Part shown: positions 17,589 to 35,943 of the stretch, in pieces
Position numbering within the stretch: the first letter of the stretch is position 1
Layout: the number at the start of each line of letters is the position of its first letter
Source: Tsuneonella deserti
Lineage (GTDB): Bacteria > Pseudomonadota > Alphaproteobacteria > Sphingomonadales > Sphingomonadaceae
Assembly: GCF_014644315.1 (NCBI RefSeq)
Contig: NZ_BMKL01000001.1
Span: 1,623,001-1,687,000, forward strand
Length of the DNA: 64,000 nt
Direction of reading: 5' to 3'
Translations under genes and position numbers: made by a program
The notes under the pieces: model-generated
Databases searched by the model: none
The model's input: only the letters and a program-made list of their open reading frames with translations
Told to the model about the DNA's origin: nothing

Positions 17589-17624
17589 CGATTGTGACGA
17601 GTCGCATCGATGAAGGGACTGGCA

Positions 17625-19979
17625 ATGGCTAATAGTTGCCACAGCGCTGACGGCATGCACCACGGGCACGATAGCGACGGGGAAGGAGCGCTCGTAACGG
17701 ATCCGGTCTGTGGGATGAAAGTGGACGCCCGCACGGCTGAACATCGGCACGAGCATGGCCGCACTGTTCACTATTTCTGTAGCGCAGGATGCCTTCAGAA
17801 ATTCACGGCTGACCCGTCCAAGTATCTGATCGCGGAGCGACCGGACCCCGCCGTGATCGCTGCAGCGCCCGGCACGATCTGGACCTGCCCGATGCATCCG
17901 GAAATCCGGCGCGATGGGCCGGGAAGCTGCCCAATCTGCGGCATGGCGCTCGAGCCTCTTGAGCCGACGCTCGAGGAGGGACCCAACCCCGAACTCGCCG
18001 ACATGACAAGGCGGTTCTGGATCAGTGCCGTGTTCACCGTGCCGCTGGCGCTGCTCGTGGTTGCGCAGGAGCTCATAGGCATCGAGCTGCTGCCCATGCG
18101 CACGTTCGTGTGGGTTCAATTCGTCCTGGCCACGCCAGTAGTACTGTGGGGCGGCTGGCCATTCTTTGAGCGGTTCTGGGCTTCTCTCAAGACCCGCAAA
18201 CTCAACATGTTCACCTTGATCGGCCTCGGTATCGGGGTTGCCTATGGCTACAGCGTCGTCGCGACACTCGCGCCAGATGATTTTCCAGCCTCGCTGCGCA
18301 CGATGGGCGGGCTCGTCCCCGTCTATTTCGAGGCGGCGGCGGTCATCACCACGCTGGTTCTGCTCGGGCAAGTGCTTGAGCTGCGAGCCCGGTCGGCCAC
18401 CGGGCAAGCGATCCGTTCCTTACTCGGACTGGCCCCGAAGACGGCGCGCCGGGTCCATCCCGACGGGTCCGAGGAGGATATTCCTCTCGATCACGTGCAG
18501 GTGGGCGATCTCCTGCGCATTCGACCGGGCGAAAAAGTGCCGGTCGATGGCTTGGTGTCCGACGGCCGCAGTTCGGTCGACGAGTCTATGATCAGCGGTG
18601 AACCGGTCCCGGTCGAAAAGACCGCTGGCGACCGCGTGATCGGTGCGACGGTCAACGGGACAGGCAGCCTCGTGATGAAGGCCGACCGGGTGGGGCGGGA
18701 CACCGTTCTTTCCCAGATCGTGCGCATGGTGGCCGAAGCGCAGCGTTCGCGAGCACCGATCCAGGCGCTGGCTGATAAGGTATCTGCATGGTTCGTGCCT
18801 GCGGTGGTGCTGGTCGCGCTCATTGCGTTCGCGGTGTGGAACTTCGTCGGCCCCGAGCCGCGAGTGGCGCACGCCTTGGTCAACGGGGTTGCGGTCCTGA
18901 TCATCGCCTGCCCTTGCGCTCTCGGTCTCGCCACCCCGATGTCGATCATGGTCGGCACGGGGCGCGGCGCGATGGCCGGCGTTCTCGTCAAGAACGCCGA
19001 AGCACTCGAACTTATGGAGAAGATCGACACCCTGGTGGTGGACAAGACCGGAACGCTGACGCTGGGCAAGCCCAAGCTTGTCGGGGTTACGGCTTCTGGC
19101 GATTTCGTCCAAGATGATGTCCTCAAACTTGCCGCAGCGCTCGAACGCGGCAGTGAGCATCCGCTGGCGGCGGCCATCGTCGAAGGAGCGCAGGAGCGAG
19201 GCCTTGCTATACCTGTCTCTTCCGATTTCCAGTCGCACACCGGCAAGGGTGTGAGCGGGAAGGTCGGTGGCCGCGCGGTGTTCCTTGGCAACAAGGCGAT
19301 GCTGGCGGACAACGGCATCTCGACCCAAGCTTTGGAAGGCAAGGCCGACGAGCACCGGGCCGATGGCGAGGGGGTGATGTTTCTCGGCGTCGATGGAGCA
19401 CTGGCCGGGCTCGTCGTGGTGGCCGATCCGATCAAGGAAAGCGCCGTGGAAGCAGTCGCGGAGCTCCGCCGGGCAAATATCCACGTCGTGATGATGACCG
19501 GCGATAATCGCCGCACCGCCGAAGCGGTCGCGCGGCGCGTGGGAATCGACGAAGTCCTGTCGGAAGTGCTTCCCGACCAGAAGCAGGCGAAGGTGGAGGA
19601 TCTGCGCCGGGCCGGGCGCCGGGTGGCCATGGCAGGTGACGGCATAAACGATGCGCCCGCGCTTGCAGCTGCCGACGTCGGCATCGCGATGGGAACCGGA
19701 ACCGACGTGGCTATGGAAAGCGCCGCGGTGACGCTCGTGAAGGGCGACCTAAGCGGGATCGTCCGCGCGCGGCACCTAAGCCGAGCGACGATGCGCAACA
19801 TCCGCCAGAACCTTTTCTTCTCGTTCGTCTTTAATGCCGCAGGCGTGCCGATCGCAGCCGGGGTTCTCTACCCTTGGTTCGGCATACTGCTCAGCCCGAT
19901 CATTGCCGGGGCAGCGATGGCCTTCAGCTCGGTGGCGGTCATCGGCAATTCGCTCCTGCTCAAGAAGGTGCGACTGTGA
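17625..19979 (+). CDS. Copper/silver-exporting P1B-type ATPase
   Basis: A 784-residue cation pump. The N-terminus has a His-rich stretch, a YHS-type domain (TDPVCGMKV, about residues 25-70) and a heavy-metal-binding domain ([20 protein letters not shown]). The transmembrane metal site is C429-P-C431 in [13 protein letters not shown], typical of Cu(I)/Ag(I) pumps, and the phosphorylated aspartate is D473 in [18 protein letters not shown] holds the nucleotide-contact His-Pro, and the hinge is [10 protein letters not shown]. It exports Cu(I) from the cytoplasm. The start at 17625 is favoured by an AAGGGA site; ATG 17610 adds five residues. It is driven by the CueR-type promoter 40 bp upstream and overlaps the next gene. 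Confidence 0.92.
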
Positions 19980-21386: not shown

Positions 21387-23171
21387 ATGCACATGAGTAA
21401 TGCTTTGCCGCTGTCCCGGCGGCGGTTTGTTATGGGTAGCGCTGCGCTTGCCGGGCTGGCGGGCGCTGTTCCCGCTTGGGCGAAGACCACCAGCCATGGG
21501 TCGGCCGCCAAGGGATTCGACACGCTGACGGGTCCCGAAATCGACCTTGCGATCGCTGCTTCCGACTTTCTCGTTAACGGAAGGACCGGTCATGCGGTCA
21601 CCATCAACGGGTCGGTCCCAGCCCCTTTGATTCGACTGAAAGAAGGCCAGAACGTCCGTCTTCGAGTGACCAACCATCTAGACGAGGACACTTCGATCCA
21701 TTGGCACGGCTTGATCGTGCCATTCCAGATGGACGGCGTGCCGGGGGTGAGCTTCCCTGGGATCAAGCCGCATTCGACTTTCACCTACGAATTCCCCGTC
21801 AGGCAAGCGGGCACCTATTGGTATCACAGTCACAGCGGGCTTCAGGAGCAGCTGGGCCATTACGGACCGATCGTCATCGATCCGGCCGATGCCGATCCTG
21901 TCGCACACGACCGCGAGCATGTGCTCGTGCTCTCCGATTGGAGCTTCCTGCATCCTCACACGATCTTCACCCGGCTGAAGCAGGAAGGCGGCTTCTTTAA
22001 CCGGCAGAAGCTGACCCTCGCCGACCGCTTGAGCGGCAAGAACCAGCACTTGTCACCCGCAGACCGCGAGATGTTTGCGCGCATGCGGATGGACCCCACC
22101 GACATTTCGGACGTGACGGCCGCGGCCTACGATTTCCTGATCAACGGCCATAGCCCCGCCGAGAACTGGACCGGTCTGTTCCGGCCCGGTGAACGCGTGC
22201 GGCTGAGGATCATCAACGCGGCAGCGCAGACGACGTTTAACCTGCGCATCCCCGGTCTGCCGATGATTGTCGTCGCGACGGATGGCATCAACGTGCGTCC
22301 GGTCGAGACCGACGAGTTCCAGATCGGCAATGCCGAAACCTACGACGTGATCGTCCAGCCGGGCGACCAGCCATACAGTATCGTCGCGGAGGCGATCGAC
22401 CGGTCCGGCATGGGTGTGGCGACCCTGGCTCCCCGCGCCGGAATGCGCGCCGCAGTCCCGCCTCTAAGAGAGCGGCCGACGCTAGACATGACCGACATGG
22501 GCATGAGCATGGACCACTCAGCCGCTCCTGCGACCGACGGAGCGGTCGATCATGCAGCGATGGGACATGGCGGTGACGCCCCGACTGCGAACCCGCCGGC
22601 GATGGACCACGGCAAGATGGATATGCGCGACGCCTCCAGCGTCGATTTCGCCGTCGGTCCCGCCGTGGATATGATTGCGCCGATGCCGATGGACCGCACC
22701 GGGCATCCTGGCGTCGGTCTCGACGATGTCGGCCACCGCGTGCTCACCTACCGGGACCTCGTATCTTTGAAACCGCGTTCCGATACGCGAACGCCGACCC
22801 GCATGGTCGAAATTCACCTAACCGGAAACATGGAGAGGTTCATGTGGTCGCTCGATGGGGAACGGCTTTCGGAGAACCCCGAGCCGTATCGCTTCGCCCG
22901 GAACGAGCGAGTGCGAATGCGGCTGGTGAACGACACCATGATGACGCACCCCATGCACCTCCACGGCCACTTCTGGGAACTCGTGAACGGCCAGGGGATC
23001 CATCAGCCCCTCAAGCACACCGTCCGCGTGCTGCCGGGTGGTTATGTCGATCTCGATCTCACGGCCGATGCCCCCGGCGACTGGGCGTTTCACTGCCATC
23101 TGCTCTACCACATGCACGCCGGAATGATGCGCATCGTGAAGATCCGGCCGATGGAAGGAGAGGGGGCATGA
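21387..23171 (+). CDS. copA: CopA/PcoA-type periplasmic multicopper oxidase
   Basis: A 594-residue multicopper oxidase exported by the Tat pathway (SRRRFVMGSAALAGLAGA). Four copper-ligand blocks are visible: SIHWHGLIVP, TYWYHSHSGLQEQ, MTHPMHLHGHFWEL and FHCHLLYHMHAGMM, which together make the T1 and trinuclear sites. A Met/His-rich insert (about residues 370-415: MTDMGMSMDHS, DHAAMGHGGD, MDHGKMDMRD) marks the copper-resistance CopA/PcoA group, which oxidises Cu(I) and binds many copper ions. The start is ATG 21387 or 21393; AGGGAT lies just upstream. The stop overlaps the copB start in ATGA. Confidence 0.93.
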   Translation: MHMSNALPLSRRRFVMGSAALAGLAGAVPAWAKTTSHGSAAKGFDTLTGPEIDLAIAASDFLVNGRTGHAVTINGSVPAPLIRLKEGQNVRLRVTNHLDEDTSIHWHGLIVPFQMDGVPGVSFPGIKPHSTFTYEFPVRQAGTYWYHSHSGLQEQLGHYGPIVIDPADADPVAHDREHVLVLSDWSFLHPHTIFTRLKQEGGFFNRQKLTLADRLSGKNQHLSPADREMFARMRMDPTDISDVTAAAYDFLINGHSPAENWTGLFRPGERVRLRIINAAAQTTFNLRIPGLPMIVVATDGINVRPVETDEFQIGNAETYDVIVQPGDQPYSIVAEAIDRSGMGVATLAPRAGMRAAVPPLRERPTLDMTDMGMSMDHSAAPATDGAVDHAAMGHGGDAPTANPPAMDHGKMDMRDASSVDFAVGPAVDMIAPMPMDRTGHPGVGLDDVGHRVLTYRDLVSLKPRSDTRTPTRMVEIHLTGNMERFMWSLDGERLSENPEPYRFARNERVRMRLVNDTMMTHPMHLHGHFWELVNGQGIHQPLKHTVRVLPGGYVDLDLTADAPGDWAFHCHLLYHMHAGMMRIVKIRPMEGEGA

Positions 23172-24418
23172 AGGCTCTTCTTCTCCTGTTGGTGGCTTTC
23201 GCGGCAGGACCGGCGATGGCCCAATCGGCTGCTGCACCGGCGGGTGCGCAGGCAGCCGCATCTACCTGTCTCCCCGAACACGCCGCCATGGGTCACTGCA
23301 GTCTGCCAGCCCCCGCTGCTCCGGTTTCGGCACCGGCGCCAAAGCCTGCGCCGGTTTGCCTGCCCGAGCACGCAGCCATGGGCCACTGCACTTTGCCGGC
23401 CTCGCCTGCCCCGAGCCCCGCACCGGCCCCACCAGCAGTTGCCTGCTCGCCGGAACATGCGGCCATGGGCCACTGCACGTTACCCCCACCGCCAGAGGCC
23501 ACCAAACCAGCCACGCCCGAATGTCTTCCGGAACATGCGGCAATGGGTCATTGCTCCATCACCGCCCCGGTATCTTCGGCCCAAGCGTCTCCGACTCCGA
23601 CCGCTCCTGGTCCTAGATGCTTGCCGGAGCATGCGGCCATGGGCCACTGCACGCTCCCCGTGGGCGAGCCCCCGGTAGCCCCGCCACCGACCGCAGCCTT
23701 CGAGGGGCCGCAAGACGCTGCCGACGCGATTTACGGCAGCGGCGCTATGGCGGCCGCGCGCGATGCGATGCGGAAGGCTCACGGCGGTGTGGCCGTTCAC
23801 AAAATGCTGCTCGACCGGGCGGAAGCCCGGCTGCGCGACGGTGAGGACGGCTACCTGATTGACGGCCAGGCGTGGTTTGGCGGCGACATCGACAAGGCCT
23901 GGTTCAAGACCGAGCTGGAGGGCGGCTTTGACGAGGGCGTGGATGAGGCCGAGATCCAGGCACTATGGAGCCACGCGATCGGCCCCTGGTTCGATCTGCA
24001 GACGGGGGTTCGCTATGATGCTCGGTCCGGATCTGATCGCGCGCATCTGGTGCTCGGCGTCCAGGGCCTCGCCCCCTACTGGTTGGAAACGGAGGCAGCT
24101 GTCTTTCTCTCGACCAAGGGAGACATCACGGCGCGGGCCGAGGCCGAACACGATGTGCGGGTCACGCAGACCGTCATCTTGCAGCCGCGGGCGGAGCTCA
24201 ACTTCTCTCTTCAGGATGTCCCGGAACTCGCTCTTGGCTCCGGCCTGACGAATGTCGCTCTTGGGGCCCGCCTGCGTTATCAGGTCACCCCGACGTTCGC
24301 CCCTTATGTGGGCGTCGAGTATGATCGAGCCTTTGGCGATACGGGACGATTTCGGACGGCCCGCGGAGAGAGTCGCGGTGGCTGGAATATCCTTCTGGGG
24401 GTGCGGACATGGTTTTAA
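23168..24418 (+). CDS. copB: CopB outer-membrane copper protein with five Cys/His/Met repeats
   Basis: A 416-residue protein with a Sec signal (to about residue 19). The C-terminal part from about residue 178 is the CopB/PcoB beta-barrel domain (DAADAIYGSGAMAAARDAM, MLLDRAEARL, DGYLIDGQAWFGGDIDKAW, ending in LLGVRTWF). Between signal and barrel lie five copies of C-x-PEHAAMGHC (residues 34-161) spaced by Pro/Ala linkers. CopB proteins usually have a Met/His-rich N-terminus, but this exact Cys-bracketed repeat is unusual. It probably binds copper arriving from CopA at the outer membrane. The start overlaps the copA stop; the end overlaps the DUF2231 gene. Confidence 0.88.
   Translation: MKALLLLLVAFAAGPAMAQSAAAPAGAQAAASTCLPEHAAMGHCSLPAPAAPVSAPAPKPAPVCLPEHAAMGHCTLPASPAPSPAPAPPAVACSPEHAAMGHCTLPPPPEATKPATPECLPEHAAMGHCSITAPVSSAQASPTPTAPGPRCLPEHAAMGHCTLPVGEPPVAPPPTAAFEGPQDAADAIYGSGAMAAARDAMRKAHGGVAVHKMLLDRAEARLRDGEDGYLIDGQAWFGGDIDKAWFKTELEGGFDEGVDEAEIQALWSHAIGPWFDLQTGVRYDARSGSDRAHLVLGVQGLAPYWLETEAAVFLSTKGDITARAEAEHDVRVTQTVILQPRAELNFSLQDVPELALGSGLTNVALGARLRYQVTPTFAPYVGVEYDRAFGDTGRFRTARGESRGGWNILLGVRTWF
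23267..23650 (+). repeat. Five CxPEHAAMGHC coding repeats within copB
   Basis: Units begin at 23267 (CLPEHAAMGHC) and end at 23650. The five differ only at the second residue (Leu or Ser) and in the linkers, which are Pro/Ala-rich and of unequal length. The DNA of the units has diverged at third positions, so protein-level selection rather than recent duplication is suggested. Confidence 0.85.
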
Positions 24419-25047
24419 TTCGCCGCATGCTGGCGTTTTTGATGCTGGCAAGTCTCAGCGCCTCGGTGCCGGCCTTCGCTCACAAGGATCACGATAGAAA
24501 ACAGCACGCGGCCGAGGCCATGCATAATTCCGCGCATCAGGAGGGCGCGCCAGCCGCAAGCAGGATGCACCAGGAACCGATGCACGGCGCGATGGAGATG
24601 GAGCATTCGGCGGACGAGCCGCCACTGACCTTCACGGATCGCCTTCTCAGCTGGATCGGGCGACTGCATCCAATCATCGTGCACTTTCCGCTCGCGTTCT
24701 TCCCCGCAGCATTGTTCACCGCAACCATCGGCCGGCGGCGGGCCTCGTTCGCAACGCCGGTGCAGTTCCTGGTCGTCGCAGGTGGCGCATTGGCGCCTTT
24801 GTCGGCGCTGCTAGGGTGGCTCGATGCAATAGGCATGGACCCGGATCCGCTCCTGACCGTTCATCGCTGGCTCGGCACGATGATTGGCGCGCTGGGCGCC
24901 GCTCTTGCGGTCTGGGCGTGGCGAAAACCCGATCAGGATCGCAGCGGGCTGATGATGGCTGCATTGACTGTGCTCACCGCGGCGATCGTCGTCCAAGGGT
25001 GGTTCGGCGGTGCGCTGGTGCACGGCGTGGACCACATGAACTGGTGA
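24409..25047 (+). CDS. DUF2231 membrane protein with His/Met-rich N-terminus
   Basis: A 212-residue protein. A signal-like segment is followed by a His/Met-rich region (HKDHDRKQHAAEAMHNSAHQ, MHQEPMHGAMEMEHS). Four hydrophobic helices of the DUF2231 type follow (LHPIIVHFPLAFFPAALFTA and three more), ending in GALVHGVDHMNW. DUF2231 proteins are predicted integral membrane proteins of unknown role. The extra metal-binding-like N-terminus and its position in the cop operon suggest a copper function. The start at ATG 24409 overlaps the copB stop. Confidence 0.75.
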   Translation: MVLIRRMLAFLMLASLSASVPAFAHKDHDRKQHAAEAMHNSAHQEGAPAASRMHQEPMHGAMEMEHSADEPPLTFTDRLLSWIGRLHPIIVHFPLAFFPAALFTATIGRRRASFATPVQFLVVAGGALAPLSALLGWLDAIGMDPDPLLTVHRWLGTMIGALGAALAVWAWRKPDQDRSGLMMAALTVLTAAIVVQGWFGGALVHGVDHMNW

Positions 25048-25081
25048 ATTAGGCGAGCCGCGGCTCGCGAAAGGTATCAAG

Positions 25082-25912
25082 ATGCTCAAAACACGACACG
25101 TGCTTTTCACATTGGTCGCCACCGCCGCGCTTGCTGCCTGCGGGGCGCCGTCCGATCAGCCCTCGGACGATGCCACCTCCGCGGCGGCGCCCGCGGAAGC
25201 CGCCGCTGACCCATACGCGGAATCCGAGAAGCGGATGGACGATGCGATGACGGCGGCGGTCGGCACCGACGTGGGCGACAACTGGGCCCGCAAGATGATC
25301 GCGCACCACCAGGGAGCGATCGACATGTCGCAGGTCGTGCTCAAGCTCGACCCGAGCCCGGACGTTGCCGAGATGGCGCGGATGACGATCGACAAGCAGG
25401 GGAAGGAGATCGAGGCGATCCGAAAGCTTCTGAAGGACGGCGTTCCGGACCAGAAGGCGGCCGAACTTTATCGACCTGTCATGACCGACATGCACCAAAA
25501 GATGATGGCCGCCAGCGGGGCGGATTCATCGGAGACGTTCCTGCGCAAGATGCTCGAGCATCACAAGGGCGCGGTCGCAATGTCCGACGTCGCCCTGCGG
25601 AACGGCGTGAGCGGAGCCGTTCGCACGCGGGTTCAGGCTACGCGGGCCGACCAGGTCAAGGAAGTCGCCATGGTCGAGGCAATGCTGCGCGGCGAGACGA
25701 TGGATCACTCGGCTGAGCCGGCGGCCAAGGCCTCTGTCGCTAGCCCTGCGCCGGCCCCGAAGCCGACGCCCGTTGCCGCGCCAGTCGCGAAGCCAACCAA
25801 GGCAGCCAAGGTTGCCCCAAAGGCGACGGTCGCTCCTGCGCCTGCGGCTCAGCCTTCGCCGTCGGCTACCGCCTCGTGTTCGCCCGAACACCACGCGATG
25901 GGTCATTGCTGA
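25082..25912 (+). CDS. DUF305 lipoprotein with two metal-binding units and a CxPEHHAMGHC tail
   Basis: A 276-residue lipoprotein with lipobox LAAC (about Cys20). Two ferritin-like DUF305 units are visible, marked by MIAHHQGAIDMSQV and MLEHHKGAVAMSDV, the paired-His helices of this family. Then comes a Pro/Ala/Lys-rich linker of some 60 residues. The last eleven residues are CSPEHHAMGHC, the same motif that is repeated five times in the CopB two genes upstream. This suggests both proteins handle the same metal or partner. A GAAAGG site precedes the start. Confidence 0.82.
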   Translation: MLKTRHVLFTLVATAALAACGAPSDQPSDDATSAAAPAEAAADPYAESEKRMDDAMTAAVGTDVGDNWARKMIAHHQGAIDMSQVVLKLDPSPDVAEMARMTIDKQGKEIEAIRKLLKDGVPDQKAAELYRPVMTDMHQKMMAASGADSSETFLRKMLEHHKGAVAMSDVALRNGVSGAVRTRVQATRADQVKEVAMVEAMLRGETMDHSAEPAAKASVASPAPAPKPTPVAAPVAKPTKAAKVAPKATVAPAPAAQPSPSATASCSPEHHAMGHC

Positions 25913-26030: not shown

Positions 26031-26741
26031 TTGCGCTTTCGTCCACACATCTTGTCGCGAAGGGTGCACAAGTGGCTCGCCCTCGCAATCGGTGTTCAGG
26101 CCGTCATCTGGACCCTGAGCGGTCTCTACATGACGGTCGTGCATATCGACACGATTCACGGCGACCATCTCGTCCGATCGGCGTTGCCCGCGCCTACTTC
26201 TGCTCGAGATCTTGCCAGCCCGATAGCGGCAGCGGCCGCGCTCCCAGGGGCGACGTCGGTGCGGCTGACCCGCGTCCTTGAACGCCCCATCTATGTCGTG
26301 ACGACCGGACAAGGCGAATACCGCTTCGATGCCCAGACCGCGAGGCCCTTGCCGCCCCCTACGCAAGACGAAATTAGGCGCGCCGCAGAATACTGGTTCA
26401 CCGGTCCCGGGCAGCTTTCGACGATCGCATTGATCGATCAGATTCCAAGCGAACTGCGGGGCCGCAAGCCGCCTCTTTGGCGGGTGGATTTCGAAGGTTG
26501 GAACCAGCCGACACTCTATTTTGCACCATCGACAGGCGAGCTCGTGAGCCGACGTCACGAACTGTGGCGAGTGTTCGACTTCCTGTGGATGATGCACATC
26601 ATGGATTACGAAACCCGCGATAATGTGAACAACCTGCTCCTGCGTGCATTCACGCTGGCCGCTCTCGCAACGGGAGCCTTCGGGGTGTGGCTGCTTTGGT
26701 TCGCCTTCTCGCGGCCCCGGCGGAAGGCCAGGGCTCGGTGA
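26031..26741 (+). CDS. PepSY-domain membrane protein, first of a tandem pair
   Basis: About 236 residues. An N-terminal membrane helix (RVHKWLALAIGVQAVIWTLS) and a periplasmic PepSY-like part (IYVVTTGQGEYRFDAQTARP, LWRVDFEGWNQPTLYFAPST) are followed by FLWMMHIMDYETRDN and a C-terminal helix (LAALATGAFGVWLLWFAF). PepSY proteins of this type accompany metal or siderophore reductase systems. I chose the TTG at 26031 (LRFRPHILSRRVHKW) with an AGGGG site; an ATG at 25923 is possible but adds an unlikely leader. It overlaps its paralog by one base. Confidence 0.75.
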   Translation: MRFRPHILSRRVHKWLALAIGVQAVIWTLSGLYMTVVHIDTIHGDHLVRSALPAPTSARDLASPIAAAAALPGATSVRLTRVLERPIYVVTTGQGEYRFDAQTARPLPPPTQDEIRRAAEYWFTGPGQLSTIALIDQIPSELRGRKPPLWRVDFEGWNQPTLYFAPSTGELVSRRHELWRVFDFLWMMHIMDYETRDNVNNLLLRAFTLAALATGAFGVWLLWFAFSRPRRKARAR

Positions 26742-27469
26742 TGGGCGTGCACACGCATACGCTGCGCGTGATCCACAAGTGGATCGGCCTAGTGATTGGC
26801 GCGCAATTTCTGCTCTGGACCCTCAGTGGGGCCGCGATGGCCCTCCTACCGATGGACGAAGTAGCCGGGGGCCCTGCGCGCAACCAAGATACTCGGCCAA
26901 ACCTCAGCACGATCGATCGCTGGCCGGAAGTCCAGAAACAGCTTGGCGGAATTGCCGTTGAAAGCTTGAAGGTGCGCACCCTGCTTGGCCGGGAGGTTTA
27001 TGAGATCTCCACTCCAACTCGCACACTACTGTTTGATGCCAAGAGCGCGACGACCATTCGCGTCGATGAACAAACCGCACGCGACATCGCCCTCTCATCG
27101 CACCCTGCCGCGGCGCCAGTGAAATCCGTCGATGCCCTCACCGAATTGCCAATGGCTGTGCGCGAACATAAGCTCCCGATCTGGCGCGTGAATTTCGCCG
27201 ACGACAGGGGCAGCAGCTATTTCGTCTCGGGTTCAACCGGAGAAGTGCTGGAGCGCCGAACCTCAGCATGGAGGCTGTGGGACTTCTTCTGGATGCTGCA
27301 CATCATGGACTACGGGGAGAGGGCGAGTTTCAACCACCCGCTCATAATAGTGGTTGGTTTCGCGGCGGTGTGGCTCGCGATCACGGGAACCTGGCTGCTA
27401 TTGCGGACTGGTTGGCGCACGGATTTCAAGCGGCTGCATCGCAAGAGTAGTCCTAGCCGGCCGTTGTGA
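26741..27469 (+). CDS. PepSY-domain membrane protein, second of a tandem pair
   Basis: A 242-residue paralog of the preceding protein with the same plan: RVIHKWIGLVIGAQFLLWTL helix, PepSY-like periplasmic part (REVYEISTPTRTLLFDAKSA, LPIWRVNFADDRGSSYFVSG), FFWMLHIMDYGERAS and a C-terminal helix (IIVVGFAAVWLAITGTWLLL). The ATG overlaps the upstream TGA. It is the last gene of the copper run before a 364-bp gap. The role is inferred only from location. Confidence 0.75.
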   Translation: MGVHTHTLRVIHKWIGLVIGAQFLLWTLSGAAMALLPMDEVAGGPARNQDTRPNLSTIDRWPEVQKQLGGIAVESLKVRTLLGREVYEISTPTRTLLFDAKSATTIRVDEQTARDIALSSHPAAAPVKSVDALTELPMAVREHKLPIWRVNFADDRGSSYFVSGSTGEVLERRTSAWRLWDFFWMLHIMDYGERASFNHPLIIVVGFAAVWLAITGTWLLLRTGWRTDFKRLHRKSSPSRPL

Positions 27470-29742: not shown

Positions 29743-31065
29743 ATGAAATCGATGTTCGCTGCGGCATGTGCCGTGGCTGCGGTCGGGGCACATTGCTCCG
29801 CGGCCGCGCAAGTCCCGAACGTGGCGACCCCACGGATGGGCACCGAAGCTGCCGGTCCCCCGGCACCCGAAACGGCATATGAACCACTTGCGTCCGTGCG
29901 CACCGGTCCGCTGCCCCCATCCTTGTCCCTGGCAGATGCCCTGTCCGAAGGACTAGCACGTTCGCAGGCCATCATTGCCGCCGAGGCTGACGTGCGAGCA
30001 GCCCGTGGGCGTCTGCGTCAGGCTGGTTATCGAGCCAATCCCGAATTGAGCCTGGAAGTCGAGAATGTTCTCGGCACCGGCGAACTGGCGGGACTTCGGG
30101 CGATGGAGACGACGCTCTCCGTCAATCAGAGGCTCGATCTCGCCGGGCGACGGGGTGCGCGAGTGCGGTTCGCACAAGCCGAGCTGATCGTTCAGCAACT
30201 GCGCCTGGCGATAGTTCAGGCCGATCTGCAGTTTACCGTCCGAGAACAATTTGCTCGCGCGGTCGCGGCCCGAGAAAAGCTCGCGCAGGCCAGCGATACA
30301 GTGGCCCGAGCTCGTGAGCTATCTCGTGTAGCCGGTGTCTTGGTAGAAGTGGGTCGCGATCCTCCGCTTCGGGCGATCCGCGCTCGATCGGCGTTGGCCC
30401 AAGCCGTTGCCGATGAAGAAGCAGCTCGTGCCGAAGACTTGGCTGCACGTTCGTTGCTTGCAGCAGCTTTGGGATCCAGTCGCGCCATAGCGTTCGTCGA
30501 GGGCGACATGAGCCTCCCGCCACCAAGCGTCGTGGGCAGTCCACTCGAATTGCGATTGGCCGATGCTGAAAGAGCATCCGCGGAGGCTTCGCTGGCAATT
30601 GAGCTGACCGCTAACCGCCTTGATCCTGCAGTTGGGCTGGGAGTGCGGCACATTCGCGAGACCGGGGACATTGGCCTGGTCGGCGGTGTATCAATTCCGT
30701 TGCCCGTATTTGACCGCAATCGTGGCGGGATCTCCGCTGCGCGTGCCGCGCTCGAAGGTGCCGAAGCTCGGCGGGCAGGAGCGGAAATCGCGGCGGATGC
30801 TCGTGCCCGGAACGCGCGCGGCGCGGTGGACGCGAACTTGCGCAGGGTCGAAGCATTAGAGCAGTCGGCCATCCCCGAGGCTGCTGAAGCCTTACGCTTG
30901 GCCGAACTCTCGTATCGCGAAGGACGAGCGACCCTCCTCGAACTTCTCGACACCCAAGAATCCTACACAGCCGCGCGTGCCGCACTGACGGATGCACGCC
31001 TCGCGCTGGCGCTCGCGCAAGCAGAACTCGCCCGAGCCGTTGCTACCGGAGACACCGAATCATGA
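29743..31065 (+). CDS. czcC: CzcC-type outer-membrane factor (TolC family)
   Basis: A 440-residue outer-membrane efflux channel with a signal (cleaved near HCSAAAQ). Two TolC-type repeats of long helices follow (SLADALSEGLARSQAIIAAE, EALRLAELSYREGRATLLEL), with the canonical YREGRATLLELLDTQ in the second. It forms the outer-membrane exit of a tripartite heavy-metal pump with the CzcB and CzcA encoded next. A good AGGAG site lies 7 bases upstream but is partly sequestered in a hairpin. The end overlaps czcB by four bases. Confidence 0.9.
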   Translation: MKSMFAAACAVAAVGAHCSAAAQVPNVATPRMGTEAAGPPAPETAYEPLASVRTGPLPPSLSLADALSEGLARSQAIIAAEADVRAARGRLRQAGYRANPELSLEVENVLGTGELAGLRAMETTLSVNQRLDLAGRRGARVRFAQAELIVQQLRLAIVQADLQFTVREQFARAVAAREKLAQASDTVARARELSRVAGVLVEVGRDPPLRAIRARSALAQAVADEEAARAEDLAARSLLAAALGSSRAIAFVEGDMSLPPPSVVGSPLELRLADAERASAEASLAIELTANRLDPAVGLGVRHIRETGDIGLVGGVSIPLPVFDRNRGGISAARAALEGAEARRAGAEIAADARARNARGAVDANLRRVEALEQSAIPEAAEALRLAELSYREGRATLLELLDTQESYTAARAALTDARLALALAQAELARAVATGDTES

Positions 31066-32255
31066 ACACAATCGTCGAACGCGTCCGCATACTGCGCGAC
31101 GAGCCAAAGGCCCGCCTATGGGCGGGGGTCGCGGCCGTGGCCTTGGTCGCCGGGATTGGGGGACTCCTCATCGGACGATCGTCCGCTCCTCAGCCGGAAG
31201 TGCCGACCGCACCTGCAGAAGAAGATCACGCCGAAGGCCCAGAAGGCTTTATCGCCATCGCTCGCGAGCAGCTTGCACCGAACGGAATCGTGGTGGAACG
31301 GGTCACGGCTGGCTCCCTCACGGATGAGATTATTGCGCAGGCCACCGTCGGTGCGCCGCCTGAAGGGGCCGGGGTGCTGACGGCACGGGCGGACGGCGCA
31401 GTGGTGCGCATGTTCAAGCAGCTCGGCGACCCCGTCGGGACAGGTGAGACCATAGCCCTCCTCGAAAGCAGGGAAGCGGCAAGCTTTGTCGCCGAGCGGA
31501 ACACGGCCGCAGCACAGGCCCAGGCTGCAAGGGCTGCCGCCGCACGAGAACAACGCCTGTTCGACGCTAAGATCACCGCTCGGCAGGACTTGGAAGCGGC
31601 GATTGCCGCGCGCCGCATAGCCGAAGCGGAACTTCAGCGCGCAGACGCCGCTGTCAGCGCGGCAGGGGTTGCGGGGGGCGGGCGATACCTTGCTGTCCGC
31701 AGTCCGATTGGCGGTCGCATCACCGAGGTCAACACTCGGCTCGGCGCGTTCGTCACCGCAGGGGCGGAACTGTTCAACGTCGCGGACCCGACCCGCATCC
31801 AGGTCGAAGCTGCCGTCCCCGTGGCTGACGCCCGGCGGCTTGCACCTGGCGACAGGGCCTTTGTTGAGTTGTCGAACGGTGAGCGGACCGAAGCCGTCGT
31901 TCGTTCTTCAACCCCAGCGCTCGATCCGGAAAGCCGCGCAGCCACCGTGGTGCTTCGTGTGATCGGCCCAGCAGGCGGCCTGACACAAGGTCAGGCCGTG
32001 CGCGTGCGCATCGTGCCCAGCGGCAGCGTGGCTGGCGGAATTGTCCTGCCTGAAGAGGCGATCCAGCAGATAGAAGGCAAGGACAGTGTGTTCGTGGCGG
32101 TCAAGGGCGGATTTCGCGCTGTGCCTGTCGCAACGGGACAGCGTAGCGGCGGCCGGGTCGAGATCGTTTCGGGACTGAAGGAAGGCCAAACGGTCGTCAC
32201 CCGCGGCGCGTTCGCGCTGAAGTCACAGCTCGGGGCCAGCGAGGCTGAGCATTAG
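31062..32255 (+). CDS. czcB: CzcB-type periplasmic adaptor (membrane fusion protein)
   Basis: A 397-residue adaptor. A membrane anchor at residues about 24-41 is followed by an acidic/His stretch (EEDHAEGPEGF). The lipoyl-type halves are GVLTARADGAVVRMFKQLGD and VRSPIGGRITEVNTRLGAFV, flanking a coiled-coil hairpin (NTAAAQAQAARAAAAREQRL). The barrel and proximal domains (VLPEEAIQQIEGKDSVFVAV, GLKEGQTVVTRGAF) finish the protein. It links CzcA and CzcC. The ATG overlaps the czcC stop. Confidence 0.9.
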   Translation: MNTIVERVRILRDEPKARLWAGVAAVALVAGIGGLLIGRSSAPQPEVPTAPAEEDHAEGPEGFIAIAREQLAPNGIVVERVTAGSLTDEIIAQATVGAPPEGAGVLTARADGAVVRMFKQLGDPVGTGETIALLESREAASFVAERNTAAAQAQAARAAAAREQRLFDAKITARQDLEAAIAARRIAEAELQRADAAVSAAGVAGGGRYLAVRSPIGGRITEVNTRLGAFVTAGAELFNVADPTRIQVEAAVPVADARRLAPGDRAFVELSNGERTEAVVRSSTPALDPESRAATVVLRVIGPAGGLTQGQAVRVRIVPSGSVAGGIVLPEEAIQQIEGKDSVFVAVKGGFRAVPVATGQRSGGRVEIVSGLKEGQTVVTRGAFALKSQLGASEAEH

Positions 32256-32663
32256 GTGCGTGCTCTGTTCGTCGCGACAGCCGTGATGACATTGGCTACG
32301 GGTTGCGCAGCGACCAAGGCGTTGCAGAACCCTGCGCGGGTCGAAGTCCTGCCCAACGACGACTTCGAGCTTTCCGGCGTGCGTGTCGGCATTCGGGGTA
32401 GCTCACTGGAAGTCATCGGGGCCGTCCGACGACGGCACCCGCTAGCTCGCGCGATCGGCGCCCACCTTGTCGTGGAGGCCTTTCGCGGGAATGAGCGTCT
32501 GGCTGGCAAACGGGCCTGGTGGTCTGTGATGTCCATGCACCGGCTACCCGGGGGCCGCTTCCAGTCGCTGCTGGCCGGTGACGCGCTTCGCGCCGACCGC
32601 GTGCGCATCGCAATTCATCCTTTTCACCGGCGTGAAGCCGAACAGGACAACCTAAATGATTGA
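32256..32663 (+). CDS. Small lipoprotein between czcB and czcA
   Basis: A 135-residue lipoprotein with lipobox LATGC (about Cys17). It starts with GTG immediately after the czcB stop and overlaps the czcA start by eight bases. The mature part (RVEVLPNDDFELSGVRVGIR, HPLARAIGAHLVVEAFRGNE) looks like a small beta-rich fold with few metal ligands. I do not recognise it; classical czcCBA operons have no gene here. It may be an accessory subunit of the pump (inference). Confidence 0.7.
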   Translation: MRALFVATAVMTLATGCAATKALQNPARVEVLPNDDFELSGVRVGIRGSSLEVIGAVRRRHPLARAIGAHLVVEAFRGNERLAGKRAWWSVMSMHRLPGGRFQSLLAGDALRADRVRIAIHPFHRREAEQDNLND

Positions 32664-35600
32664 CCGTCTCTTGGACGCTTCCGTCCGATTTCGCTGGGTA
32701 GTGCTCGCCGTAACCGCCCTCGTTGCTCTCTACGGAGCGTTTCAACTCGCCCGACTTCCGATCGATGCGGTGCCAGACATCACCAACAAGCAGGTCCAAG
32801 TGAACATTTCGGCCGGGCAGTTCAGTCCGGTCGATATGGAACGCCTAGTGACATTTCCGGTCGAGAACTCCCTCGCCGGGATTCCTGGCCTTGATTACAC
32901 TCGCTCCATATCTCGGAACGGCTTCGCGCAAGTCACCGCTGTGTTCGACGAGAGCGCAGACCTCTACTTTGCCCGACAACAGGTGGCCGAGCGGTTGGCA
33001 CAAGCGGCGGAAAGCCTGCCTGACGGTGTGCAGCCTCAGATGGGCCCCGTTTCGACTGGCCTCGGCGAGGTGTTGATGTGGTCGGTCGATTACGAATCAA
33101 GTGCCTCGCGTCAGTCACCCAAGATTTCAGGGCGTCCTGGCTTCCAGCCTGACGGCAGCTACCTCACCGTGGATGGTGAACTGCTAACAGATGAAACAGC
33201 GCGACTGGCATATCTGCGCACGGTGCAGGACTGGGTCATTCGCCCACAACTGCGTGCAGTCGATGGCGTAGCTGGGATCGATAGCATCGGCGGTTTCGAG
33301 AAGCAGTTCGTCGTCCAGCCCGACCCAAGTAAATTGGCGGGCTACGGTGTGTCTTTTAGCGAACTGGCTGATGCGCTCGAACGGGCCAACTTGTCGGTGG
33401 GGGCGAATTTCATCCAGCGTGGCGGCGAGGCCTTTCTCGTGCGCGCGGATGCTCGCATCCGGCATATCGACGAGATCGGCAGGACGGTAATCGCCAACCG
33501 AGGTGGGTTGCCCATCACGGTCGCGGACGTCGCCGCAGTCCGACTCGGCGGGGAATTACGCACTGGTGCCGCCTCCTACAACGGCAAGGAAGTGGTGATT
33601 GGAACCGCCCTCATGTTGGCGGGCGAGAACAGCCGCATCGTCGCTCAAGCGGTGTCGGAAAGACTGGGCGAGATCACAAAATCTCTGCCGCCGGGCGTTC
33701 GCCTCACTCCACTTTACAATCGCTCGGCGCTCGTGGACGCCACGATTGCCACGGTCGAGAAGAACCTGGTCGAAGGCGCGCTTCTAGTCATTGTCGCGCT
33801 ATTCTGGCTGCTCGGCAATATCCGCGCGGCGGTCATCGCCGCGCTGGTCATACCGCTCTCGTTTCTCATGATGGCGATCGGGATGAACCGCTACGGCGTC
33901 TCCGGTAACCTCATGAGCCTTGGCGCGCTCGACTTCGGTCTGATCGTCGATGGTTCAATCATCATCATCGAAAACTGCCTACGTCGGCTCGCCGAAAGGC
34001 AGCATCACGAAGGTAGACTACTCGACCTAAGCGAGAGGCTCCATGAGGTGTTCGAGGCCGCCAAGGAAATGGTCCGTCCGACGTTGTTCGGACAAGCCAT
34101 CATCCTGCTCGTTTTCGCTCCGCTGCTGACCTTCAATGGGGTCGAGGGCAAGATGTTCACGCCGATGGCTATCACGGTCATCTTGGCGTTGGTCGCAGCG
34201 TTCATCCTCTCGCTGACTTTCGTGCCCGCAATGGTGGCCGTGTTGATCCGAAACCGCGTGTCCGAAGAGGACGTGTCGGCAATCCGCTGGATCAAGGATC
34301 GATATCGTCCCCGGCTCAACCATGTGCTGGCCGCGCCGAAGAAGTTCGCCTTGGCCGGTGTAGGAGCATTCGCGCTCGCGGGCGTGCTATTCATGACGCT
34401 TGGACAGGAGTTCATCCCACAGCTCGACGAGGGCGACCTTGCGATGCAGGCCATCCGCATTCCCTCCACCTCGCTCGACCAGTCGCTCACCATGCAGCGG
34501 CGGGTCGAAGGAGCCATCGCGTCGTTGCCTGAAGTCTCGTTTATCTACTCGAAGACGGGCACCGCCGAGGTGGCCACCGATCCGATGCCGCAGAACGCAT
34601 CAGACGCGTTTGTCATCCTCAAACCGAAGGAAAAGTGGCCTGACGGCGTGAACTCGAAGGAAGACGTCGTCGAACGCATCGAGGCAAAGATGAAGACGCT
34701 CACCGGCAATGGCTTTGAAGTAAGCCAGCCGATCGAGATGCGGTTCAACGAATTGATTGCCGGTGTTCGGGGAGACGTAGCGATCAAGCTTTTCGGCGAT
34801 GATCTTGAACAGCTCGAACAGCTTGCCGGACAGGTAGCGCGAGCGATCGGGGACGTGGAAGGAACCGCAGATTTGCGCGTCGAGCAAACCGGTGGATTTC
34901 CCACGCTCGACGTGCAGTTCGATCGCGATGCAATTTCGCGCTACGGGCTGTCTGCCGAGGACGTTGCCGACACCGTCGCTGCTGCCTTGGGTGGGCGGGA
35001 AGCGGGTCTCGTGTTTGAAGGTGACCGCCGGTTCGATATCGTGGTCAGGCTGGACAACGCTACGCGCGACAGTCTTGACGCTATCGGCGCGTTACCCGTC
35101 ATGCTCGAAGGCGGTTCCGGACCCCGTGCATCAGTTCCGCTGCGCGAAGTTGCCCGATTCACTTACAGCGAAGGCGTGAACCAGGTTAGCCGCGAAAACG
35201 GTCAGCGGCGCATCGTGGTTCAGGCCAACGTCCGTGGACGAGACCTCGGCTCCTATGTCGAGGCGGCACGCACTGCCGTGAACGAGAAGGTGAAAGTGCC
35301 ACCTGGCGTCTTCATCACTTGGGGCGGGCAATACGAGAATCTTCAAGCGGCTTCGCAGCGCCTAATGATCGTTATTCCTCTCGTTTTCGCGTTGATCTTC
35401 GGAATTCTCTTCCTCGCACTGCGGAGCCTCAGTTCCGCGCTAACGGTATATTCCGCAGTTCCGCTCGGACTCGCCGGGGGCGTTTACGGGCTCTTCCTGG
35501 CAGGTTTGCCTTTCTCGATTTCCGCGGCAGTCGGCTTCATCGTGTTGTCCGGTGTTACCGTGCTCAACGGGTTGGTCGTGATGAGCGGCATTACCCAACG

Positions 35601-35943
35601 ACTAGACCGGGGCGTTCCGATCGACGCAGCAATCTCAGAAGGGATGATGGAGCGGGTCCGCGCGGTGATCATCACCGGCGTTGTTCCAGCGATAGGCTTC
35701 GTGCCGATGGCGATCGCCACCGGACGTGGAGCAGAGGTCCAAAAGCCATTGGCGATCGTTGTGATTGCCGGGCTGGTCGTGGCCACGCTGCTGACACTGT
35801 TCGTCTTGCCCGCCATCGGCAAGCTCCTGCTCCATCGCAAGCGGGAGGATCACGTCCAAGGCAATTACGCCCACGAGGATCGGTTCGGGCGCGAACCGGA
35901 GGCCGCGGCCGCAAATCAAGGAGCACTTCCCAATGCGACCTAA
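32656..35943 (+). CDS. czcA: CzcA-type heavy-metal RND efflux pump
   Basis: A 1095-residue RND transporter of the heavy-metal subfamily. The N-terminal helix is followed by RLPIDAVPDITNKQVQV, the standard HME start. The signature helix 4 reads LGALDFGLIVDGSIIIIENC, with the Asp/Asp/Glu proton-relay residues of HME-RND proteins. A second half-repeat starts around 540, and the protein ends in FVLPAIGKLLLHRKRE. It drives export of divalent cations (Zn, Co, Cd or Ni) from the periplasm using proton flow. The stop overlaps the next gene. Confidence 0.93.
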   Translation: MIDRLLDASVRFRWVVLAVTALVALYGAFQLARLPIDAVPDITNKQVQVNISAGQFSPVDMERLVTFPVENSLAGIPGLDYTRSISRNGFAQVTAVFDESADLYFARQQVAERLAQAAESLPDGVQPQMGPVSTGLGEVLMWSVDYESSASRQSPKISGRPGFQPDGSYLTVDGELLTDETARLAYLRTVQDWVIRPQLRAVDGVAGIDSIGGFEKQFVVQPDPSKLAGYGVSFSELADALERANLSVGANFIQRGGEAFLVRADARIRHIDEIGRTVIANRGGLPITVADVAAVRLGGELRTGAASYNGKEVVIGTALMLAGENSRIVAQAVSERLGEITKSLPPGVRLTPLYNRSALVDATIATVEKNLVEGALLVIVALFWLLGNIRAAVIAALVIPLSFLMMAIGMNRYGVSGNLMSLGALDFGLIVDGSIIIIENCLRRLAERQHHEGRLLDLSERLHEVFEAAKEMVRPTLFGQAIILLVFAPLLTFNGVEGKMFTPMAITVILALVAAFILSLTFVPAMVAVLIRNRVSEEDVSAIRWIKDRYRPRLNHVLAAPKKFALAGVGAFALAGVLFMTLGQEFIPQLDEGDLAMQAIRIPSTSLDQSLTMQRRVEGAIASLPEVSFIYSKTGTAEVATDPMPQNASDAFVILKPKEKWPDGVNSKEDVVERIEAKMKTLTGNGFEVSQPIEMRFNELIAGVRGDVAIKLFGDDLEQLEQLAGQVARAIGDVEGTADLRVEQTGGFPTLDVQFDRDAISRYGLSAEDVADTVAAALGGREAGLVFEGDRRFDIVVRLDNATRDSLDAIGALPVMLEGGSGPRASVPLREVARFTYSEGVNQVSRENGQRRIVVQANVRGRDLGSYVEAARTAVNEKVKVPPGVFITWGGQYENLQAASQRLMIVIPLVFALIFGILFLALRSLSSALTVYSAVPLGLAGGVYGLFLAGLPFSISAAVGFIVLSGVTVLNGLVVMSGITQRLDRGVPIDAAISEGMMERVRAVIITGVVPAIGFVPMAIATGRGAEVQKPLAIVVIAGLVVATLLTLFVLPAIGKLLLHRKREDHVQGNYAHEDRFGREPEAAAANQGALPNAT

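Follow-up and report, generated by a model that had tools for sequence, protein, structure and literature searches.

An 11-residue Cys2His2 unit shared by CopB, CopA and lipoproteins of copper clusters, with a proposed role in periplasmic copper binding

CxPEHxAMGHC is an 11-residue unit that is present in five copies in CopB and once more at the end of a DUF305 lipoprotein in the window, the 64,000-nucleotide stretch of DNA analysed here (G000:C1:1623001-1687000 within a 2.78 Mb genome, probably of a sphingomonad to judge by its relatives); these six are the only matches in the window. The unit is shared by otherwise unrelated proteins, as the initial annotation had proposed, and its range is wider than was claimed there, extending to the multicopper oxidase CopA and to bare lipoproteins. 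It is highly conserved at both Cys and both His and is linked to cop genes; it probably acts as a self-contained periplasmic copper-binding cassette of Cys2His2 type, used in place of Met-rich arms.

The copper cluster of the window contains genes for a copper-type P-type ATPase, a MerR regulator, a Cys/His-rich protein, CopA, CopB, a DUF2231 protein, a DUF305/CopM lipoprotein and two PepSY-type proteins (Table 1). CopB starts at the ATG at 23168; its barrel scores 266.6 bits against PF05275 (cut-off 27), residues 206-416 match PDB 7pge, and all 10 of its Cys lie inside the units. The lipoprotein body scores 83.7 bits against PF03713 (cut-off 27) and 96.5 bits against the NCBIfam CopM family NF049983 (cut-off 90), with HHQGAIDMS at residue 75 and HHKGAVAMS at residue 160; of its three Cys, Cys20 belongs to the lipobox and the other two to the unit. 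Its gene does lie two genes after copB, as had been noted, with the DUF2231 gene alone between them. The CopA of the window has no Cys unit, and displays DHAAMGHG at 22548-22571, in the region that carries the unit in CopA of relatives. The 89-residue protein upstream of copA contains CCKKCC and HAGH stretches and gave no match in a Pfam search; a comparable Cys/His-rich protein is also encoded upstream of copA in locus L017 (4058-4429, minus strand). The first PepSY-type gene scores below its own Pfam cut-off, and the efflux and RND genes are preceded by a MerR gene and a cation efflux gene. The same genome contains a second copper operon (L225:517-6115, from the stretch C1:1957500-1968500) with genes, named by sequence likeness, for a P-type ATPase, MerR, CopA without the unit and CopB with two units; a DUF305 gene is not found directly 3' of this operon.

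Table 1. Features of the copper cluster and neighbouring genes, in window positions
Feature	Position	Strand	Basis or placement
Copper-type P-type ATPase with YHS and HMBD domains	17610-19979		
MerR regulator			copper cluster, listed between P-type ATPase and copA
Small secreted Cys/His-rich protein, 89 residues	21061-21330	+	directly upstream of copA
copA, multicopper oxidase	21387..23171	+	TIGR01480, 793.9 bits
copB: signal peptide, five units on a flexible arm, outer membrane barrel	23168..24418	+	PF05275, residues 211-416
Unit 1, CLPEHAAMGHC (CopB)	23267..23299	+	motif scan
Unit 2, CLPEHAAMGHC (CopB)	23357..23389	+	motif scan
Unit 3, CSPEHAAMGHC (CopB)	23444..23476	+	motif scan
Unit 4, CLPEHAAMGHC (CopB)	23522..23554	+	motif scan
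Unit 5, CLPEHAAMGHC (CopB)	23618..23650	+	motif scan
DUF2231 membrane protein, between both unit-bearing genes	24409..25047	+	PF09990, 39.6 bits
DUF305/CopM-type lipoprotein, two HH-containing DUF305 stretches	25082..25912	+	PF03713 and NF049983
Pro/Ala/Lys-rich linker, DUF305 domain to unit	25694..25876	+	sequence
C-terminal unit of DUF305 lipoprotein, CSPEHHAMGHC	25877..25909	+	motif scan; stop codon immediately 3'
Two PepSY-type membrane proteins	26055-26741 and 26687-27469	+	3' of lipoprotein gene
Outer membrane efflux protein, CusB/HlyD-type fusion protein, RND pump	29743-35943	+	

A chance origin of the unit is rejected: CxPEHxxMGHC has six matches in the window against a mean of 0.00 in 100 dinucleotide shuffles, and in 298 genomes of the family a backward control pattern gave 0 against 48 for the forward pattern. 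One of these 48 genomes holds only a chance match (L167, one of 36 loci examined), which has odd spacing and lies 5' of a transhydrogenase-like frame. Of 398 genomes of the phylum, 4 contain an exact match, and three of these belong to the family of the window; this pattern requires Met8 and therefore misses most DUF305 tails.

Conservation within the unit was followed with an unanchored scan that accepts 11-residue windows having at least five of the eight fixed positions (seven where Met is not scored); the homologue lists among the sets scanned lean towards the query, as they contain the best 120 of 2687 matches for CopB and the best 120 of 643 for DUF305. Among 838 such windows, drawn from five partly overlapping sets, Cys1 is lost once, Cys11 never, His10 once and His5 three times. 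By set, the mismatches are P3 (8) and E4 (2) in CopA (70 proteins, 100 windows); P3 (25), E4 (7), M8 (7), G9 (2) and H5 (1) in CopB of the loci (79 proteins, 186 windows); P3 (49), M8 (31), E4 (5), G9 (3), H5 (2) and H10 (1) in the CopB protein set (121 proteins, 411 windows); and, with Met not scored, P3 (8) and C1 (1) in DUF305 proteins (121 proteins, 120 windows) and E4 (1) in the bare lipoproteins (21 proteins, 21 windows). Both Cys and both His are thus the most constrained residues and Met8 is optional. The composition first described for the unit, two Cys, two His and one Met, holds for its Cys and His; Met8 is no obligate part, being present in 11 of 121 DUF305 proteins, query included. 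When DUF305 proteins are clustered at 80% identity, C1, H5, H10 and C11 are each found in 49 of 50 clusters and M8 in 7 of 50; the tail of the fiftieth cluster is DPHAGHDMNKM. The dispensable Met leaves Cys-His-His-Cys as the likely ligands.

The two Cys come and go together. In windows anchored without regard to Cys, both, neither or one are present in 376, 49 and 0 windows of the CopB protein set, in 100, 53 and 0 of CopA, and in 183, 73 and 0 of CopB of the loci; among the windows with neither are D-H-x-x-M octapeptides and a site close to the barrel that is itself conserved. Unit spacing agrees in 540 of 540 protein matches and in 479 of 480 locus matches, where overlapping stretches are counted repeatedly and the exception is the chance match L167. 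Several positions outside the ligand set are also strongly kept, namely P3, E4, G9 and mostly Ala at 6 and 7. All-or-none Cys, invariant spacing, kept non-ligand positions and a dispensable Met8 would also suit a recognition tag, in which a Cys1-Cys11 disulfide loop docks a shared cop partner and metal binding plays a lesser part or none; in Caulobacter, the disordered PcoB arm stabilises PcoA, perhaps through docking (PMC12509749). This alternative is considered unlikely, as His5 and His10 are kept nearly as well as the Cys, an HAGHxM-type sequence is able to replace the unit, and repeats of up to seven per protein fit a binding array better than a single docking site. Strict Cys pairing, and the location of the unit beside a copper oxidase, could likewise point to a redox element whose Cys pair cycles between thiol and disulfide, reducing Cu(II) or protecting the proteins of the cluster, with only transient metal contact; CxxC spacing is absent, however, and neither the bare lipoproteins nor the unit array contain a known redox domain over cut-off, which makes such a function very unlikely.

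The five CopB units of the window, compared pairwise, differ by 51 synonymous and 4 non-synonymous codon changes over 110 codon pairs, so that selection, and not a recent duplication of DNA, accounts for the shared peptide; between the CopB units and the DUF305 unit there are 23 synonymous and 9 non-synonymous differences (55 pairs). A neutral spread, in which low-complexity arms merely tolerate the repeat, would account for the variable, Pro/Ala-rich linkers around the units and for the coming and going of the unit itself, yet it is highly improbable given the excess of synonymous changes and a Cys pair that is nearly invariant although P3, E4 and M8 vary.

The unit is tied to cop genes, as is supported by a scan of species genomes for CxPEHxxMGHC. 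The check on linkage called for by the initial annotation gave CopA and/or CopB in 117 of the 120 stretches listed (both in 93, CopA only in 18, CopB only in 6); the scan yielded at least 120 stretches, so that the linkage figures rest partly on a portion of the existing cases, and the 120 are not independent, as several genomes contribute two. The 164 unit-bearing frames in these stretches are assigned to the CopB barrel (83), CopA (72), DUF305 (1) or none of these (8); by inspection the last eight comprise five arms of CopB-like proteins truncated where the stretch ends, a pair of small lipoproteins (L017 and L098) and an unplaced Rhodothermales protein (L095). The three stretches with neither a CopA nor a CopB match are L037, L095 and L098; in L037 a DUF305 protein ending in the unit is encoded about 1 kb from a P-type ATPase resembling that of the window. 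The Rhodothermales protein (L095:4740-6638, minus strand) has two units in its N-terminal part; it matched nothing in Pfam and NCBIfam searches, and CopA, CopB and DUF305 matches are absent from its stretch. Most listed stretches are from Sphingomonadales, with others from Lysobacteraceae, a few marine gammaproteobacteria, Tistrella and one member of the Rhodothermales; plasmid searches place CopB and DUF305 relatives on sphingomonad plasmids as well. CopB is present in 117 of 149 family genomes, and all 22 pattern-bearing genomes, matched to the CopB genomes by handle, are among these 117 (p = 0.003). Cys2His2 ligand sets suit zinc, and zinc or another metal may be conceived as the true ligand, or the site as purely structural; the CopA/CopB linkage in 117 of the 120 listed stretches speaks against either, and both are judged most improbable.

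The arms of CopA and of CopB/PcoB are known to be Met/His-rich and to contain octapeptides of the pattern D-H-x-x-M-x-G-M, such as D-H-S-x-M-x-G-M. The unit is found in the same proteins and regions, on the same disordered arms, and its CopA and CopB versions share the H-x-x-M core; it differs from the octapeptides in having Cys at both ends, E for D, H10 and a fixed 11-residue frame. Units adjoin D-H-x-x-M octapeptides in both CopA and CopB. When 283 Cys-bearing windows of the loci were examined for a D-H start and a Met end, E was found in 279 and D in 4, and all ended in Cys; a continuum with the D-H-x-x-M repeats was set aside, as single-Cys windows number 0 in the Cys-blind scans.

Replacement of Met-rich arms by units is partly shown. 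When CopB of the family was sampled by barrel score regardless of the unit (30 loci, 28 usable CopB), arms with units (n = 8) have on average 6.8 Met and 5.8 Cys, and arms without (n = 20) 13.4 Met and 0.1 Cys; Met per residue differs between the two (p = 0.0005). Stretches selected for the unit (87 usable CopB) run against such a trade-off, with 10.8 Met in arms with units (72) and 2.9 in those without (15), a comparison in which the rule for picking protein starts may have shortened a number of arms and 9 or more of the 15 unit-less CopB belong to one clade with a distinct CopB type; the trade-off thus rests on the smaller, 28-protein sample. On a tree of 111 CopB barrels, from which arms were excluded and in which some long branches are flagged, the unit changes at least 12 times, and branches with good support require 8 of these changes; shuffles need 29. 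This indicates repeated but non-random gain or loss. A single protein has up to 7 units. In the Sandarakinorhabdus stretches L009 and L018 units are present in CopA and not in CopB, so that gain and loss proceed separately in each protein.

The unit is also carried by small lipoproteins. The L017 protein consists of a lipobox, a Pro/Ala/Glu-rich stretch and CTPEHEAMGHC-KQ, and is encoded 3' of copA-copB-DUF2231, the position held by DUF305 in the window; among 5.8 billion proteins searched, 21 relatives were found (116-147 residues long), and in all of them just two residues follow the unit. These bare lipoproteins (21 and the query) have little beyond lipid anchor, linker and unit, which suggests that the unit is their working part; they match no curated Pfam or NCBIfam family over cut-off. 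From the lipid-bearing Cys to the unit they measure 84-105 residues (21 proteins), whereas in DUF305 proteins the linker between domain and unit spans 53-69 residues (49 clusters). Gly, Ser or Ala follows the lipidated Cys in every DUF305 cluster (50 of 50) and in every bare lipoprotein (21 of 21); under the E. coli sorting rule, such a residue directs a lipoprotein to the outer membrane, so that the unit-bearing lipoproteins are predicted to reside in the membrane of CopB. The C-terminus of DUF305 proteins is formed either by the unit or by an HAGHxM-type sequence, and in L140, L141 and P0218 the latter takes the position that the unit has in relatives. PepSY-type genes occur together with unit-ending DUF305 genes in the stretches L001, L046, L103, L105 and L135-L138, on the opposite strand in L136, and also in the stretch of the L098 bare lipoprotein, of which an identical sequence is found in L188; PepSY-type proteins may be partners of the unit-ending lipoprotein.

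CopA, CopB, CopM and Met-rich arms are already known; the unit is regarded as a new type of copper-arm repeat, found in four kinds of protein. The view that no named domain exists for it is borne out by the curated families, as the unit array has no match over cut-off in Pfam (best Defensin_beta, E 0.028, 14.9 bits, cut-off 21) or NCBIfam (best E 4.8), and none in the PDB at E 10. Neither a description of the unit nor a mention of PEHAAMGHC was found in the literature searched, most subscription journals being outside its scope. The type-1 copper ligand loop of cupredoxins combines Cys, His and Met, with Met an obligate ligand; mimicry of this loop was set aside, as only 7 of 50 DUF305 clusters have Met8 and 31 of 411 CopB windows have another residue there, a distinction drawn by the Met criterion. 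The body of the window's lipoprotein scores above the CopM cut-off and matches solved DUF305 chains (PDB 5fej, 7vw0), to which it adds a lipobox, a long Pro/Ala/Lys arm and the C-terminal unit. The CopM of Synechocystis is a tight Cu(I) binder that is said to be devoid of Cys, and periplasmic Cu(I) proteins are described as Cys-free and dependent on Met and His (PMC4335983). In the CxxxM-HxM site of OprC, Cys and His bind Cu(II) (PMC11836926); an outer membrane protein there binds copper jointly through Cys and His, as proposed for the unit, however the OprC site is folded, at the outer surface and within a transporter, whereas the unit is a repeated 11-residue element on arms. Bufferins, copper peptides modified by MNIO enzymes, are secreted, Cys-bearing and copper-chelating (PMC12452194). 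MNIO modification is rejected for this genome, where the enzyme family PF05114 was not found (0 of 1; control genomes 2 of 14).

Metal, coordination, oxidation state, hand-over and location are what we infer. It is hypothesized that the two Cys and two His of C-x3-H-x4-H-C coordinate a single copper ion, most probably as Cu(I), and that Met8 assists where it is present. The unit is mounted on flexible Pro/Ala-rich arms of proteins concerned with copper in the periplasm. These are the arm next to the CopB barrel, a loop in the CopA oxidase, the tail of the CopM-type lipoprotein, and the bare lipoprotein tethers. Copper released into the periplasm by the P-type ATPase would be caught by the units and passed on, either to be oxidised by CopA or to be exported through CopB; as the site is the same on all carriers, copper could move from one to another at similar affinity. 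The contour length of some 90 residues is near 30 nm, sufficient to span the periplasm, and bare tethers in the outer membrane may enlarge the copper catchment. The PcoB arm of Caulobacter is required for copper efflux, and changes to its His or Met raise cell copper while growth is normal (PMC12509749). The unit has the same place and partners as such Met/His arms, and the simplest reading is that it does their work through thiolate and imidazole.

Certain points weigh against the copper-binding cassette: the periplasm is oxidising and the Cys pair may exist as a disulfide; P3, E4, G9 and Ala 6/7 seem to be kept more strictly than chelation needs; and the CopA proteins of the window and of the second copper operon have no unit. 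A docking role, suggested by the non-ligand conservation, can exist alongside a copper role, the two being compatible. A fuller proposal, offered as a tentative possibility, is a mobile Cys2His2 cassette that substitutes for Met arms and is also borne on tethers sweeping the periplasm, the members of the relay being chemically equivalent and docking on a shared partner. The initial interpretation, a common metal-handling module perhaps handing copper between the inner and outer membrane sides, is as a whole partly supported.

The unit departs from the Cys-free habit of periplasmic Cu(I) proteins in being strict, paired, repeated and present in four protein kinds. It also provides a short, defined peptide with which the copper route to the CopB/PcoB barrel can be probed, and its motif is usable for annotating proteins that are now counted as hypothetical.
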